Source: Mesotoga sp. BH458_6_3_2_1 | GTDB lineage: Bacteria > Thermotogota > Thermotogae > Petrotogales > Kosmotogaceae | Reading direction: 5' to 3' | DNA: 64,000 nucleotides | Assembly (NCBI RefSeq): GCF_003664995.1 | Contig: NZ_JFHL01000009.1 | Coordinates: forward strand, 1 to 64,000 | Shown here: in pieces, positions 1 to 55,212 of the stretch | Layout of the letters: every line of letters starts with the position of its first letter | Position numbering within the stretch: position 1 is the first letter of the stretch | The notes under the pieces: model-generated | The model's database searches: none | What the model saw: the letters and a program-made list of their open reading frames with translations, nothing else | Told to the model about the DNA's origin: nothing | Position numbers and translations under genes: made by a program

Positions 1-760
1 CCCGAAAAAGGTCCTGGTTGTACGCGAAAAATGGGACAGACCTCAGGAGAAATCGCAAGGCGCCGAAGATCGTCGGCGGACGCAAGGCCGGGAAGTACAT
101 CCCGGGACGCAGGGCTGGCAAAAATCATGCCAGGACGCAAGGCCCGCTTCGCGGGGAAAGATCCTCACTGCCAGTCTGCTAACGCAGGCCAGTCAGGCTC
201 CGCCTGGCCAGTCTCGCCTTCGGCGAGGCCAGTTCCGACTTCGTCGGGCAAACAAAGACCATTGAGAAAGAGCGTTGTGGAGAGGTTCGCTGCGCTCACG
301 AGAGAATTGAGAGAGAAGAAACCAGATTGGCGATGAAACTTACCCCGTCACATGCATCTCTTTCATCTCACCTTGTGACCAACGAAGAACAGATCCTTCC
401 TCTGGAACAAATAGCAATTTTTTTCCTCATTGACGTCTGCTCTTTTCGGAGAACGGTGGACCGTTGACGGATAACGTTGTCTTCACAGCGATCAGCGAAA
501 AGCGGTTCTTAGGTGTGAGATCCCGTGTAGGCCCATCACGGGATGACAGAAGAGGCGTTGAGCAAGTCAGCCTCTACGGTATGACAATTTCAGACGATTA
601 TGCAATTCTTTTGTAGGGGCGAATGGCCGTTCGCCCGAAAAAGGTCCTGGTTGGAATCTCTGCCTTTTACGCGAAAAAGGGACATACTATAGGAGCCGGT
701 CGGTCCCTATTTTCGCTCTCGTCCTCTCGTGAGCGCAACGAACGTCTCGATACGCTTTTT
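1..760. repeat. Composite dispersed repeat, copy 1 (hairpin array plus palindrome)
   Basis: This stretch shares blocks with 15885-16860, 23355-24540 and 39513-41290. It holds a hairpin array at 61-247, a conserved block at about 249-450, an almost perfect 20-bp palindrome at 617-636 (GGGCGAATGGCCGTTCGCCC), and an inverted repeat at 673-718 built on GCGAAAA and GGGAC arms. Open frames here, such as 31-336 and 623-829, run through the palindromes and have no ribosome binding sites, so I do not call them genes. It may be a mosaic of REP-like or MITE-like units. No transposase is present inside it. Confidence 0.85.
61..247. repeat. Array of eight short hairpins with two constant linkers
   Basis: Eight consecutive short inverted repeats: CGCCGA/TCGGCG (61-78), CCGGGA/TCCCGG (88-105), CTGGCA/TGCCAG (115-133), CCCGC/GCGGG (143-155), CTGC/GCAG (176-187), CAGGC/GCCTG (194-206), CTCGCC/GGCGAG (213-227), CCGAC/GTCGG (235-247). 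The first four are separated by GACGCAAGG or GACGCAGGG, and the last four by GCCAGT. The stems differ from each other while the linkers are constant. Function unknown. Confidence 0.85.
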
Positions 761-15884: not shown

Positions 15885-16860
15885 TCCGACAAGAGCACAT
15901 CTTAGTCGAAAAACGGAAGGAGCCGAAAAGCATCGGCGGACGCAAGACCGGTGAAGAACCTTTGTGGAAGTGAGGCCGCTTCGCAGGAGGCCTTTCAGGT
16001 CAGCCGTCACCGGTCCTCCGTCCTCCGACAAGAGCTGTAAGACGCAGTACTCCGAAGATTATCGGCGGACGCAAGGCCCTCTTCGCGGGGAAAGATCTTT
16101 AGAGCCAGTCTGCTAACGCAGGCCAGTCAGGCTCCGCCTGGCCAGTCTCGCCTTCGGCGAGGCCAGTTCCGACTGCGTCGGTCAAGCAAAGACCATTGAG
16201 AAAGAGCATTGTGGAGAGGTTCGCTGCGCTCACGAGAGAATTGAGAGAGAAGAAACCAGATTGGCGATGAAACTTACCCCGTCACATGCATCTCTTTCAT
16301 CTCACCTTGTGACCAACGAAGAACAGATCCTTCCTCTGGAACAAATAGCGATTTTTTCCTCATTGACGTCTGCTCTTCTCGGAGAACGGTGGACCGTTGA
16401 CGGACAACGTTCTCTTCACCAGCGTGCAGCGGATCTTACGGCGAGATTCCGTGCAGGCCCATCACTGGATAACAGAAGAGGCGTTGAGCAAGTTAGGCTT
16501 TACGGGATGACAATGTCAGACAATTATGCGATTCTTTTGTGGGGGCGAACGGCCGTTCGCCCGAAGGAGGTCTTGGTTGGAATCTCTGCCTTTTACGCGA
16601 ATTAAGGACTTTAGGAACATTTGGGAGCCAGTCTGCTAACGCAGGCCAGTCGCACTTCTAGCGGCTAGTCTTTGCTTCGCAAAGGACGGTTCCGCTTCGC
16701 GTGCAGAAAAGGCGCTAAGCGCTTAAAAGAGTCGCCTTTCGACCTTCGTCCAAGATCACGGACCCGTCCTTCGAAAAGATCAACCGAGAAGGATCATTTC
16801 GAGATGTTCACTGAGTTCACGAGAAGAATGAGATTCTGAGCAAGATCATTTCAGAATGAC
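15885..16860. repeat. Composite dispersed repeat, copy 2
   Basis: It contains the GACGCAAGG-type linker region (about 15930-16095), a GCCAGT-linked hairpin array at 16104-16181, the block also seen at 249-450, a perfect GGGCGAACGGCCGTTCGCCC palindrome at 16543-16562, and a second, divergent hairpin array at 16626-16730 (for example CTTTGC TTC GCAAAG at 16670-16684). The frame 16261-16605 lies wholly within the repeat and is not considered a gene. Confidence 0.85.
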
Positions 16861-23354: not shown

Positions 23355-24540
23355 GGAGATCCCGTGCAGAACCATCACGGGATGACAATTTCAGATGATT
23401 GTGCAGTTCTCTTGTAGGGGCGAACGGCCGTTCGCCCGAAAAAGGTCCTGGTTGGATTCTCTGCCTTTTACGCGAAAAATGGGACAGACCGTAGGAGCGT
23501 TTGGGAGCCAGTCTGCTAACAAAGGCCAGTCAGGCTCCGCCTGGCCAGTCTCGCCTACAGCGAGGCCAGTTCCGGCCATGCCGGTTTTTTTGTGACAGAC
23601 TCCATTATTTACATCTAGTTAACGTTTGCATGCTCATTCCAACATCTTCGTACCAGGCCAGTCATGCTTCTCGGAGAAATTAAACTCCGTTTTGATGTAA
23701 GGAACCGTCCTTGGTCCTTCGTCCCAGATCATGAACCCGTCCCTCGAAAGAGCAGTTCTTTGTTCCGGCACTTCGGGCCCAGGTTCTTGGTTAAGGAGCG
23801 TGAGAGAATAATAGAGATGGAGAGACGTATGAGAAGAACGAGATCCCGTGCAAACCCGCCAAACAGGATCCCGGAACAGGAGACCCAAACAGGAGCATTT
23901 TGGGGCAGGCTTATTGGGGCAGGTTCTACGGGATGACAATTTCAGATGATTGTGCAGTTCTCTTGTAGGGGCGAACGGCCGTTCGCCCGAAAAAGGTCCT
24001 GGTTGGATTCTCTGCCTTTTACGCGAAAAATGGGACAGACCGTAGGAACGTTTGGGAGCCAGTCTGCTAACAAAGGCCAGTCAGGCTCCGCCTGGCCAGT
24101 CTCGCCTACAGCGAGGCCAGTTCCGACTTCGTCGGGCAAGCAAAGACCATTGAGAAAGAGCGTTGTGGAGAGGTTCGCTGCGCTCACGAGAGAATTGAGA
24201 GAGAAGAGACCAGTAAGATTGGCGATTAAACTTACACCGTCACGTGCATCTCTTTGATCTCACTTTGACTAACCAAGAACAGATCCTTCCTCTGGAACAA
24301 AGAGCAATTTTTTCCTCATTGACGTCTGCTCTTCTCGGAGAACAGTGGACCGCCGACGGACAATGTTGTCTTCGCAGCGGTCAGCGCGTTTTCGTTCTTA
24401 AGCGTGCAGCGCATCTTACGGTGAGATCCCGTACAGACCCCCCAAACTGAACCTCCAATCACGATCCCTGAACAGGACCTTTTCAGGGCAGGCTCATTAA
24501 GGCAGCTCATTGGGGCAGGCTTTACGGGATAACAAACTGA
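23355..24540. repeat. Composite dispersed repeat, copies 3a and 3b
   Basis: A block of about 195 bp at 23385-23578 is repeated almost identically at 23936-24129 (offset 551). Each holds the perfect 20-bp palindrome (23418-23437 and 23969-23988) and a GCCAGT-linked hairpin array (23507-23584 and 24058-24136). In the first copy the last hairpin is CCGGC CAT GCCGG followed by seven Ts, a terminator-like variant. Between them lies a GACAGACTCC element at 23590-23620. Open frames in the block are repeat artefacts. Confidence 0.85.
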
Positions 24541-34498: not shown

Positions 34499-34733
34499 AA
34501 GTCCTCCTTGATAATAATCGCCCGCAGATGGAGCAATGATTTTTTTGAGAGACTATTCAACCAAACTAAGCCTATCACTGAAATTATTCCAATTCCAAAT
34601 AAAAGTGTGACTCTTACCACACGATGTTTTTCATTCATGACAAGGCCAGAGTATTTTTTCGGCAGAGCTTTGGTGACTCCTTTTTGAAGATTTGGGTGAT
34701 GACTATTGCACTTTTCTTTGCTATTATTTTCTC

Positions 34734-34751
34734 AGGCGGAGTGCTCCGCCT
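34734..34751. repeat. Palindrome at the 5' edge of the transposase gene
   Basis: AGGCGGAG TG CTCCGCCT is a perfect 8-bp stem with a 2-nt loop, 27 bp before the REP-associated transposase start. REP-associated transposases usually recognise such palindromes, so it may be its target or end. It could also simply be a terminator. Confidence 0.5.
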
Positions 34752-34778
34752 CTTCAATTTTCCACTCGAGGTGAGATG

Positions 34779-35693
34779 ATGCCTAGACATGCGAGGGTTG
34801 TTTTTGAGGGCGTGGCCCATCATATTACTCAGAGAGGGAACTACAGACAGAATATTTTCGAAGACGACTCAGACAGAAAGAGATATCTTCAACTCGTAGG
34901 TGAATACTCAGAGAAGTACAAGACAAAGATCTTCGCTTACTGCCTAATGACTAATCACGTTCACTTCATTGCGGCTCCTATGACGCCCGACTCACTGGCA
35001 CTGACATTTAAGTATGCGAACATGAGGTATTCAAAGTACTTCAACTTCAAGAACAAAATGTTGGGTCACTTATGGCAGGCAAGATTCTATTCCTGTCCTC
35101 TTTTTGGGAATCACGCAATTGAAGCGGTCAGATACGTTGAAAGAAACCCGGTGCGGGCCAACTTAGTAGGCATTCCATGGGAATATGAATGGTCGAGTGC
35201 TGCCGAACATGTCGGCCTCTCAGTTCTACAGTCTTCATCATCTGGTCCAAATTGTGGCTTGGTTCACAGCCGTCTTGAGAACGGATCGAAGAATCAAAAC
35301 CTGAAAAATGGTGTTGTTCAAGATACAAGAAGGACGATATCCAGAGCTAGTGATTCTTCCAACAACAGCGATCTCTCAAAGCAAGAAACGATTTCGACCG
35401 AGCAGGACATCCGAAAAGCATCAGTCGATTCGAATTCGGAGATTGCTAAACACACTGGATATGGAATTACTCTTTCCTCTCTCGAAGAACTCGGCCTGAA
35501 CTGGAATTCAGAAGGATGGAAAGAGTTTTTGGGTTATCCTGATGATGAAAGCTTTATCAAAGAAATGCGCAGCAGCACAATCTCGGGGAAGCCGTTCTTC
35601 TCTGAGGGGTTCGAACTTGAACTTGGAGAAAACACTGCCGCTTCAACAGCCAGAAAGAAGAGAGGAAGACCTCGCAAAGCCCCTCGGAATTGA
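34779..35693 (+). CDS. REP-associated tyrosine transposase (IS200-like, Y1)
   Basis: 304 residues from ATG 34779 (ATG 34776 also possible) with GAGGTGAG upstream. N-terminal MPRHARVVFEGVAHHITQRGN is the hallmark of this group. The HUH metal motif is NHVHF (about residue 61) and the catalytic Tyr is in AVRYVERNPVRANLV. The first 150 residues form the Y1 transposase domain. The C-terminal half is a long, Ser-rich, lower-complexity extension ending in KKRGRPRKAP, an AT-hook-like tail. Such single-copy transposases are linked to the spread of palindromic REP sequences, which abound in this window. Confidence 0.9.
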   Translation: MPRHARVVFEGVAHHITQRGNYRQNIFEDDSDRKRYLQLVGEYSEKYKTKIFAYCLMTNHVHFIAAPMTPDSLALTFKYANMRYSKYFNFKNKMLGHLWQARFYSCPLFGNHAIEAVRYVERNPVRANLVGIPWEYEWSSAAEHVGLSVLQSSSSGPNCGLVHSRLENGSKNQNLKNGVVQDTRRTISRASDSSNNSDLSKQETISTEQDIRKASVDSNSEIAKHTGYGITLSSLEELGLNWNSEGWKEFLGYPDDESFIKEMRSSTISGKPFFSEGFELELGENTAASTARKKRGRPRKAPRN

Positions 35694-39512: not shown

Positions 39513-41290
39513 GGCTCGCTGCGCAGGAAGCCCTCAGGTCAACTGTAAAAGGTCCGCCGTCCTCCGACAAGAGAGAGAGTTGCACGACGCAAGGCGCCGA
39601 AGATCATCGGCGGACACAAGGCCCGCTGCGCGGGGAAAGACCTTCATTGCCAGTGTGCTACGCACGCCAGTCAGGCTCCGCCTGGCCAGTCTCGCCTTCG
39701 GCGAGGCCAGTTCCGACTGCGTCGGTCAAGCAAAGACCATTGAGAAAGAGCATTGTGGAGAGGTTCGCTGCGCTCACGAGAGAATTGAGAGAGAAGAAAC
39801 CAGTAAGATTGGCGATGAAACTTACCCCGTCACATGCATCTCTTTGATCTACTTTGACTAACCAAGAACAGATCCTTCCTCTGGAACAAATAGCGATTTT
39901 TTCCTCATTGACGTCTGCTCTTTTCGGAGAACGGTGGACCGCCGACGGACAACGTTGTCTTCACTGCGACCAGCGGGTCTTAGCGCTAAGCCTGACTAGT
40001 TTCTACTGTAATAGATGGGGAAGTCAGGAACCCGTCAGTCCCCTATTCGAAATGCTACGGGATGATAATGTCAGACGATTATGCGATTCTTTTGTAGGGG
40101 CGAACGGCTGTTCGCCCGAAAAGGGTGTTGATTGGAATATCTGCCTTTTACGCGAAAAATGTGACAGACCGTAGGAGCATTTGGGAGCCAGTCTGCTAAC
40201 GCAGGCCAGTCACCTTCAGTACCGCTTTGCAGGCAAAGAACTGCTATTCACTCTAAAAAACACATTGACCGTCAACGGTAAACCGTTCTCTGAATTGAGG
40301 TAAATACCAATTCAAGTTTCATAAAGGGCGCACGGTTTGAGGCGTGCTTCAGAGCGCACACTCCCCACCGCAAGCGGTCCCCCCCGCTCAAGCGGGGATT
40401 TAAGATCAAGAGCATTAAGAGCGGTTATTCTTTATCCGTCAACGGTCATTCGTGAAAAACGGGACAGACCTTAGGAGCCGGTCAGTATTTTTCGGGACAG
40501 ACTCGATTATTTACATTTCGTAAACACACTTATAGCCCCACAATTCTAAGCGGAAGTGGACGGCTCCAGACTTCCGAGGGACTCTATTATTCGAATAGAC
40601 GTGGACAGGCGTCAGGAGCTCGTCAGTCCCCTATTCGGTTCCCTTATCAGTACTCTTTTGGGCGAACGGCCGTTCGCCCCTACAAGAAGTGTATGATTCT
40701 GAATTGGACCACTGATCAAGAGGATCGTCTACTGGCTCTTCACGTTCTTCCCGTGCAGCGTATCTTTTGCTCTTCTCGCTCGGAGTTTGGAGAATCGTTT
40801 ACAGTGAACCTGCAAACGTCTCCCGCCGGAGGCGAAACGGACGGGGACAGATGTCAGGAGTTCGTTAGTCTTCTATTCGAAATGCTACGGGATGACAATG
40901 TCAGACGATTATGCGATTCTTTTGTAGGGGCGAACGGCTGTTCGCCCGTGAGTGGATTTCAGTGCAGGCTCTACGAGATGACAGTAACGCTCAATTAGTG
41001 GATGATACCGCTTCACGTCATCCTGACAATGGTTTTGGTCAGGATCTGCTCTTTTGGGTTTCACGAAGCATGCACGCGAAAAATGGGACAGACGCTAAGG
41101 GCACGTCAGTCACTATTTTCGCTTACAGCGCTCAGCGGTTTTTGGTACGAGATCCCGCACAGGAGCACTGCGGGATGACAGTCCTTCGCGTCATCCTGGC
41201 ATGCTTCTGGCCAGGATCTCGGGTTCCCGCCAAAAATGGATCAAGCCATAGGAACAGAGCAGTCCCAATTTTCGCTCAGTCTCGGCTAGT
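39513..41290. repeat. Composite dispersed repeat, copies 4 and 5
   Basis: Contains the CGCCGA/TCGGCG-GACACAAGG region (39593-39640), a GCCAGT-linked hairpin array at 39649-39725, the palindrome with one mismatch at 40098-40117 and 40928-40947, the perfect palindrome at 40660-40679 in the opposite context, hairpin remnants at 40187-40238, a CCCCGCTCAAGCGGGG unit at 40382-40397, a GACAGACTC element at 40494-40527, and several GGGACAGAC/GTCAGTCCC inverted repeats. About 75 bp at 40040-40118 recur at 40870-40948. Open frames such as 39509-39847 and 40911-41420 are built from these repeats and are not genes. Confidence 0.85.
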
Positions 41291-55045: not shown

Positions 55046-55212
55046 AAACCCACCGGCTCTCCACGCATTCTTCGTGACAGTCATACAGGTCTTTCCTGTA
55101 TGCCCAGAAGTCGGTCGCTGGGGCTTCCGCCTTCTTCGGCACCCTCGCCTTTCGATCCGTTCCAATCCCCTGATGAACGTCTACTGATCTCGGGTGCTCC
55201 TCCGTTGGGTAA
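55046..55212 (-). promoter_or_regulatory. Lysine riboswitch (L-box)
   Basis: Read on the minus strand, conserved L-box blocks appear in order: GAGGAGCACCCGAGATCAGT, GACGTTCATCAGGGGA, AAAGGCGAGGGTGCCGAAG, a CATACAGG/CCTGTATG arm, ACTGTCAC, and GTGGAGAGCCG. The closing helix P1 pairs ACCCAACGG with CCGGTGGGT. The blocks closely resemble the Thermotoga asd lysine riboswitch. Lysine binding should favour the terminator at 54979-55018 and turn off the operon. Confidence 0.92.

Follow-up and report, generated by a model that had tools for sequence, protein, structure and literature searches.

Strings of different hairpins behind a constant GCCAGT linker in the intergenic DNA of Mesotoga-type bacteria

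For BIMEs, a role as gyrase, nucleoid-protein or replication-related sites has been proposed, CRISPR arrays have constant repeats of about 20-40 bp between which the spacers are unrelated, and RNAs that titrate proteins are typically made of many hairpins with constant unpaired linkers. Palindromic repeats are also described for Mesotoga: according to the accessible part of Di Nocera et al. (PMC3733652), a CGTC-3 REP family occurs in Mesotoga prima and head-to-tail REP dimers are negligible, and in the accessible part of PMC12306157 the palindromes of M. prima are counted by RepRanger. In DNA, GNA and GNNA loops closed by C-G form extraordinarily stable, nuclease-resistant mini-hairpins (PMC4686876). 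Here we analysed a stretch of 64,000 nucleotides from Mesotoga sp. BH458_6_3_2_1 (the window), which carries near its start a series of hairpins that reverses the usual bacterial palindromic repeat, the linker being fixed and the stems variable. We found no description of GCCAGT strings in the open-access papers that were searched, and the accessible parts of PMC3733652 and PMC12306157 describe no GCCAGT linker family.

The array at 61-247 and related strings in the window

Reading the sequence directly, we located eight perfect hairpins in 61-247 on the + strand. Hairpins 1-4 (61-78, 88-105, 115-133 and 143-155) form the block A string (61..155), in which GACGCARGG lies between the hairpins and the spacers are, in order, GACGCAAGG, GACGCAGGG and GACGCAAGG. 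Block B (170..247) is a string of four GCCAGT-tagged hairpins, namely CTGC-TAAC-GCAG (176-187), CAGGC-TCC-GCCTG (194-206), CTCGCC-TTC-GGCGAG (213-227) and the terminal CCGAC-TTC-GTCGG (235-247), and each of these hairpins 5-8 has GCCAGT(T) as its 5' neighbour. The first-pass annotation had described eight hairpins that follow each other without gaps; all eight are real, but the 14-bp non-hairpin junction GAAAGATCCTCACT (156..169, +), followed by GCCAGT, separates hairpins 4 and 5. A similar junction was present in other copies.

Perfect local hairpins that do not overlap cover 43 bp of the array; in 2000 dinucleotide shuffles they covered 13.6 bp on average (sd 6.0) and never more than 39. The minimum free energy of the array folded as a whole was ordinary relative to shuffles (z -0.94 and -1.20), because GC-rich shuffles pair at long range too, and global folding is therefore the wrong test for such strings. 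The trailing segment GCAAACAAAGACCATTGAGAAAGAGC... (248..500, +) is conserved and recurs behind other strings; it was rejected by eye as coding, with no conserved frame and a T-run whose length varies among copies.

Further strings were found on the + strand of the window. A second full copy (16050..16181) consists of one block A hairpin, CCCTCTTCGCGGG and a GCCAGT string of four hairpins, and block A hairpins with a GCCAGT string of four hairpins also lie at 39586..39725. The GCCAGT string at 16627..16650 is partly decayed, the one at 23507..23584 stands behind a half REP (GGGACAGACCGTAGGAGC) and has partly broken stems, the one at 24058..24135 is its close duplicate, and a short one behind a half REP is at 40187..40210.

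Other elements were also seen. The ATCCCGTG...CACGGGATGACA palindromes, at 520-548 of the window and in many other places, resemble the M. prima CGTC-3 REPs as far as the accessible part of their description goes. A separate REP lies at 661-716 of the window, where it reads GCGAAAAAGGGACA...GGTCCCTATTTTCGC, and in the L068 7339-8202 flanks, and flanks one RAYT gene; several hairpin strings follow on its left half, as though they stood in for the right one. The palindromic module GTAGGGGCGAAYGGCCGTTCGCCCGAA (617-640 of the window) recurs in many islands. A second string type, AAAAGGCGA-GAATCA-TCGCC, GAAGGC, ACCAC, CTCAGCT, CACTG, has the same order at several loci (L062 398-531 on the - strand, L083, L085, L090, L119 and L120), and the copies in L083 and L090 seem closer to each other than their flanks, which are 76% identical. 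A lysine riboswitch (RF00168, 82 bits) at 55046-55212 on the - strand is the sole above-threshold Rfam match in the window.

Occurrence in the genome and in relatives

The search for GCCAGT-spaced pairs suggested by the first-pass annotation was run as GCCAGT-N10-22-GCCAGT and matched this genome 142 times, whereas the reversed pattern matched 3 times; 82% of the enclosed segments were perfect hairpins, against 2% in shuffled sequence. A near-identical pattern with N8-24 gave 17 matches in the window where 0.05 were expected. The same annotation had staked its claim on an excess of self-complementary segments over shuffled sequence, and this excess was recovered in every well-sampled genome: when an enclosed segment was scored as a hairpin if it had a stem of at least 4 bp, hairpins made up 69-87% of the segments, against about 2% after shuffling. 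The constant linker with variable palindromes is thus a property of the whole genome, of the genus and of its sister genus. Two other linkers obey the same rule as GCCAGT. In 528 kb of this genome, GACGCARKG formed 52 pairs, 44 of them enclosing hairpins (reversed control 1), and GAAGTGAKG formed 70 pairs, 57 of them enclosing hairpins (reversed control 0). The contrast drawn earlier with ordinary REPs, which have one or two conserved palindromes, also stands, and instead of one or a few stem types repeated per genome we counted 22 stems in 120 units here and 25 stems in 51 units in G033.

The strings are short, intergenic and dispersed, about a hundred in number, in Mesotoga-type bacteria. 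A scan of the phylum (103 genomes) showed an excess of GCCAGT pairs only in this genus and in genus g5 of the same family. Six further members of the genus have the excess (G024, G025, G026, G028, G029 and G031), G023 and G027 have GCCAGT pairs at background level only, and G030, with 7 pairs against 1 in the control, is doubtful. In g5 the tag GCCAGT is kept and the stem set is almost entirely different, including CCGCC, CGCCC, CCGAG, CTGGC, ACGATC and ACCC; G032 has a few Mesotoga-type units, on one contig. When one exact unit was scanned against the genome collection, the sole match was a Kosmotogaceae MAG. The packaging signal considered in the first-pass annotation found no backing, since phage and plasmid searches for the string gave no match and the viral pattern scans were empty except for two matches that lack the hairpin mosaic, lie in other sequence and look like chance.

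Loops, turnover and possible origin

Most perfect units follow the loop rule C(TNC)G or C(TNNC)G irrespective of the stem. In triloop units the closing pair was C-G in 179/184, the first base T in 177/184 and the third base C in 166/184, with the middle base free, and 41-42 of the 44 tetraloop units read C(TNNC)G. Some units, mainly those of block A and many in g5, have longer loops and fall outside the rule. The complementary strand of the rule-following loops reads c(GNA)g or c(GNNA)g, and mainly because these loops match the published mini-hairpin DNA, single-stranded DNA would be the form that is selected or recognised. DNA and RNA energy tables barely separated the strands, and these triloops get no bonus in them.

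The same stem twice in one GCCAGT string was found in 0 of 478 pairs, where 25.6 were expected from permutation within genome and position, and by the same measure block A had 2 repeated-stem pairs in 363 against 17.2 expected. When each distinct neighbour pair was counted once, the results were 0/55 (expected 2.2, P 0.10) and 0/32 (expected 1.3, P 0.25), so the raw counts speak strongly for a no-repeat rule, but it loses significance when shared ancestry is taken out. Ancestry explains much of it, and slippage collapse of identical neighbours would explain the remaining deficit.

Orthologous places in different genomes retain the tags, whereas whole hairpins have been exchanged or lost as units. 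At L066/L116 the linkers occupy the same positions and a private variant, GCAAGT, is retained, but three hairpins are changed, two of them entirely; at L088/L095 three units are absent and the deletion ends near GGCCAGT repeats; at L073/L094 and L077/L122 hairpins are exchanged. Some strings persist at orthologous places though the flanks are only 76-79% identical. The islands around the strings turn over fast and the flanks are mosaics of other repeats, and a systematic search for empty sites gave mosaics only, with no clean insertion site with target duplication. Synteny with relatives is broken at repeat-rich intergenic islands (15875 and 36598 in the window; L111, L115 and L112), and several contigs begin or terminate inside such islands.

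The repeat is therefore real and unusual: the linker and the shape are conserved and the sequence is variable, with a constant tag, a variable yet self-complementary stem, a constrained loop and units in head-to-tail order. We put a probability of roughly one half on the reading that the strings are BIME/REP-like intergenic DNA repeats, in which a constant tag and a shape-defined mini-hairpin act as single-stranded DNA. In each unit an unpaired GCCAGT would precede a short, perfect palindrome in which a C-G pair closes a 3- or 4-base loop. While the DNA is being replicated or repaired, a protein that responds to the tag and the hairpin shape, and not to the stem letters, would read the unit in its single-stranded form. 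Such recognition of shape would let stems drift by compensated steps or move between strings, and slippage between direct repeats would collapse strings with two identical neighbours, so that lasting strings would carry all-different stems. As a guess, the most plausible past or present mobiliser would be a RAYT-type HUH tyrosine transposase. A bolder version can be put forward only tentatively, namely a repeat class that has its identity in linker and hairpin shape and not in sequence, its strings being made of mini-hairpins that all differ, taken from a genome-specific dictionary and swapped as cassettes from string to string by a dedicated single-stranded-DNA enzyme.

Two Y1 (RAYT-like) genes are present in this genome, one in the window (34692..35693, +; 333 aa, PF01797 match 1.4e-14 at 34812-35144) and one on contig 7. 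The window gene is a possible but unproven partner of the strings. Strings adjoin a RAYT directly only at the contig 7 gene and its G028 orthologue, and in both the string is directly behind the 3' REP; the contig 7 gene is flanked by another REP (GGGACAGAC...GTCAGTCCC). The PF01797 (Y1 transposase) profile search gave no match in five string-bearing genomes (G024, G025, G031, G032 and G033), so strings can persist without a resident RAYT. G033 has only apparent RAYT fragments, seen by eye in the flank of one string as a start and a later piece; at L144 8000-8677 in genus g5, two apparent pieces of a RAYT gene, with repeat sequence between them, lie beside a seven-hairpin string. That a tyrosine transposase propagates the strings is unproven; transposition or hairpin copying, as proposed before, may be involved and agrees with the unit-by-unit swapping and deletion.

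The strings could also be a passive product, in which template-switch (quasi-palindrome) correction would keep the palindromes and slippage or recombination at short repeats would reshuffle them, without a recognising protein or a function. Exact module mosaics, unit deletions ending near direct repeats, 28 stems that are compensated one-pair variants of common stems and many decayed copies all speak for such an origin, but it leaves unexplained why a 6-base linker survives between genera while the stems are replaced, and why the loops keep T and C with a free middle base, and we hold it to be possible with the odds against it.

A structured RNA, one of the possibilities named in the first-pass annotation, would be a CsrB-like sponge presenting single-stranded GCCAGU (or ACUGGC), or an mRNA 3'-end stabiliser, and appears unlikely. 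The layout of the strings resembles a protein-titrating RNA, and strings lie somewhat oftener behind a gene on the same strand (44 of 72 cases, 44 vs 28), but there are about a hundred scattered copies and not a single gene, no Rfam family scored above the gathering score near the array (weak matches were far below threshold), and string direction was unrelated to the coding strand (rho -0.06, n=94 loci; 87/171 on the majority coding strand). Distinct stems with a single mismatch had A-C more often than G-T (29 vs 14, p 0.03) and there was no G·U excess on the + strand, which argues against a + strand RNA because RNA would give the reverse. Read from the opposite strand, the A-C excess is one of G-U and would suit an antisense transcript, but the minus-strand tetraloops are mostly not GNRA.

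Strings within one stretch share direction in 29 of 39 stretches, against 15.5 expected. Plain per-locus GC skew is dominated by gene direction, so third-position skew corrected for gene strand was used, and direction followed it with rho 0.34 (p 0.0026; 53/77 loci concordant), a weak correlation over non-independent loci, with the leading strand not fixed by dnaA/16S positions. Replichore polarity from contig order alone was rejected, as string directions in G025 are mixed over the full list. A host chromosome element, such as a gyrase, nucleoid-protein or replication-related site, would suit the weak replication-strand polarity and the orthologous persistence of some strings, but is improbable given the missing excess in two members of the genus and the fast turnover of hairpins and neighbouring modules.

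Comparison with known systems

Because repeat searches depend on conserved sequence, they easily overlook a repeat in which nothing but a 6-base linker and the hairpin shape is conserved. In the strings, compensatory changes and swaps of palindrome units are recorded naturally and can be counted, and it becomes testable how palindromic repeats spread in bacteria and why their tags outlast the stems. Through the loop rule, a single-stranded DNA motif known mainly from chemistry is connected with a repeat in genomes.

Like CGTC-tagged REPs, as described in the accessible part of PMC3733652, the strings are made of short palindromes between genes, each with an unpaired tag on one side, have no known dedicated transposase and show alternative complementary stem residues. 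Unlike these REPs, they have stems of 4-7 bp against 8-9 bp, many stems per genome and a head-to-tail order, and the tag is GCCAGT and not the unpaired GTAG or CGTC of the REP superfamily; the block A linker GACGC, however, gives GCGTC when read in reverse complement and is possibly a degenerate form of the CGTC tag. With RAYT-mobilised GTAG REPs and BIMEs the strings share the unit of tag and hairpin, the intergenic mosaics of recurring palindromes and conserved spacers, and RAYT genes in some string genomes and beside some strings, but here the tag is constant and the palindrome variable, and the contig 7 RAYT is flanked by a different REP. Constant and variable segments alternate as regularly as in CRISPR arrays, but the constant part has only 6-9 bases and the variable parts are self-complementary and reused between strings. 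CsrB/RsmZ sponge RNAs are likewise hairpin series with a repeated unpaired motif, whereas the strings are about a hundred dispersed copies known here from DNA sequence alone. On the complementary strand, most units have the C-G closed GNA/GNNA loop of d(GCGAAGC)-type mini-hairpin DNA (PMC4686876), which is known as a chemical motif, whereas the strings are a genomic repeat.
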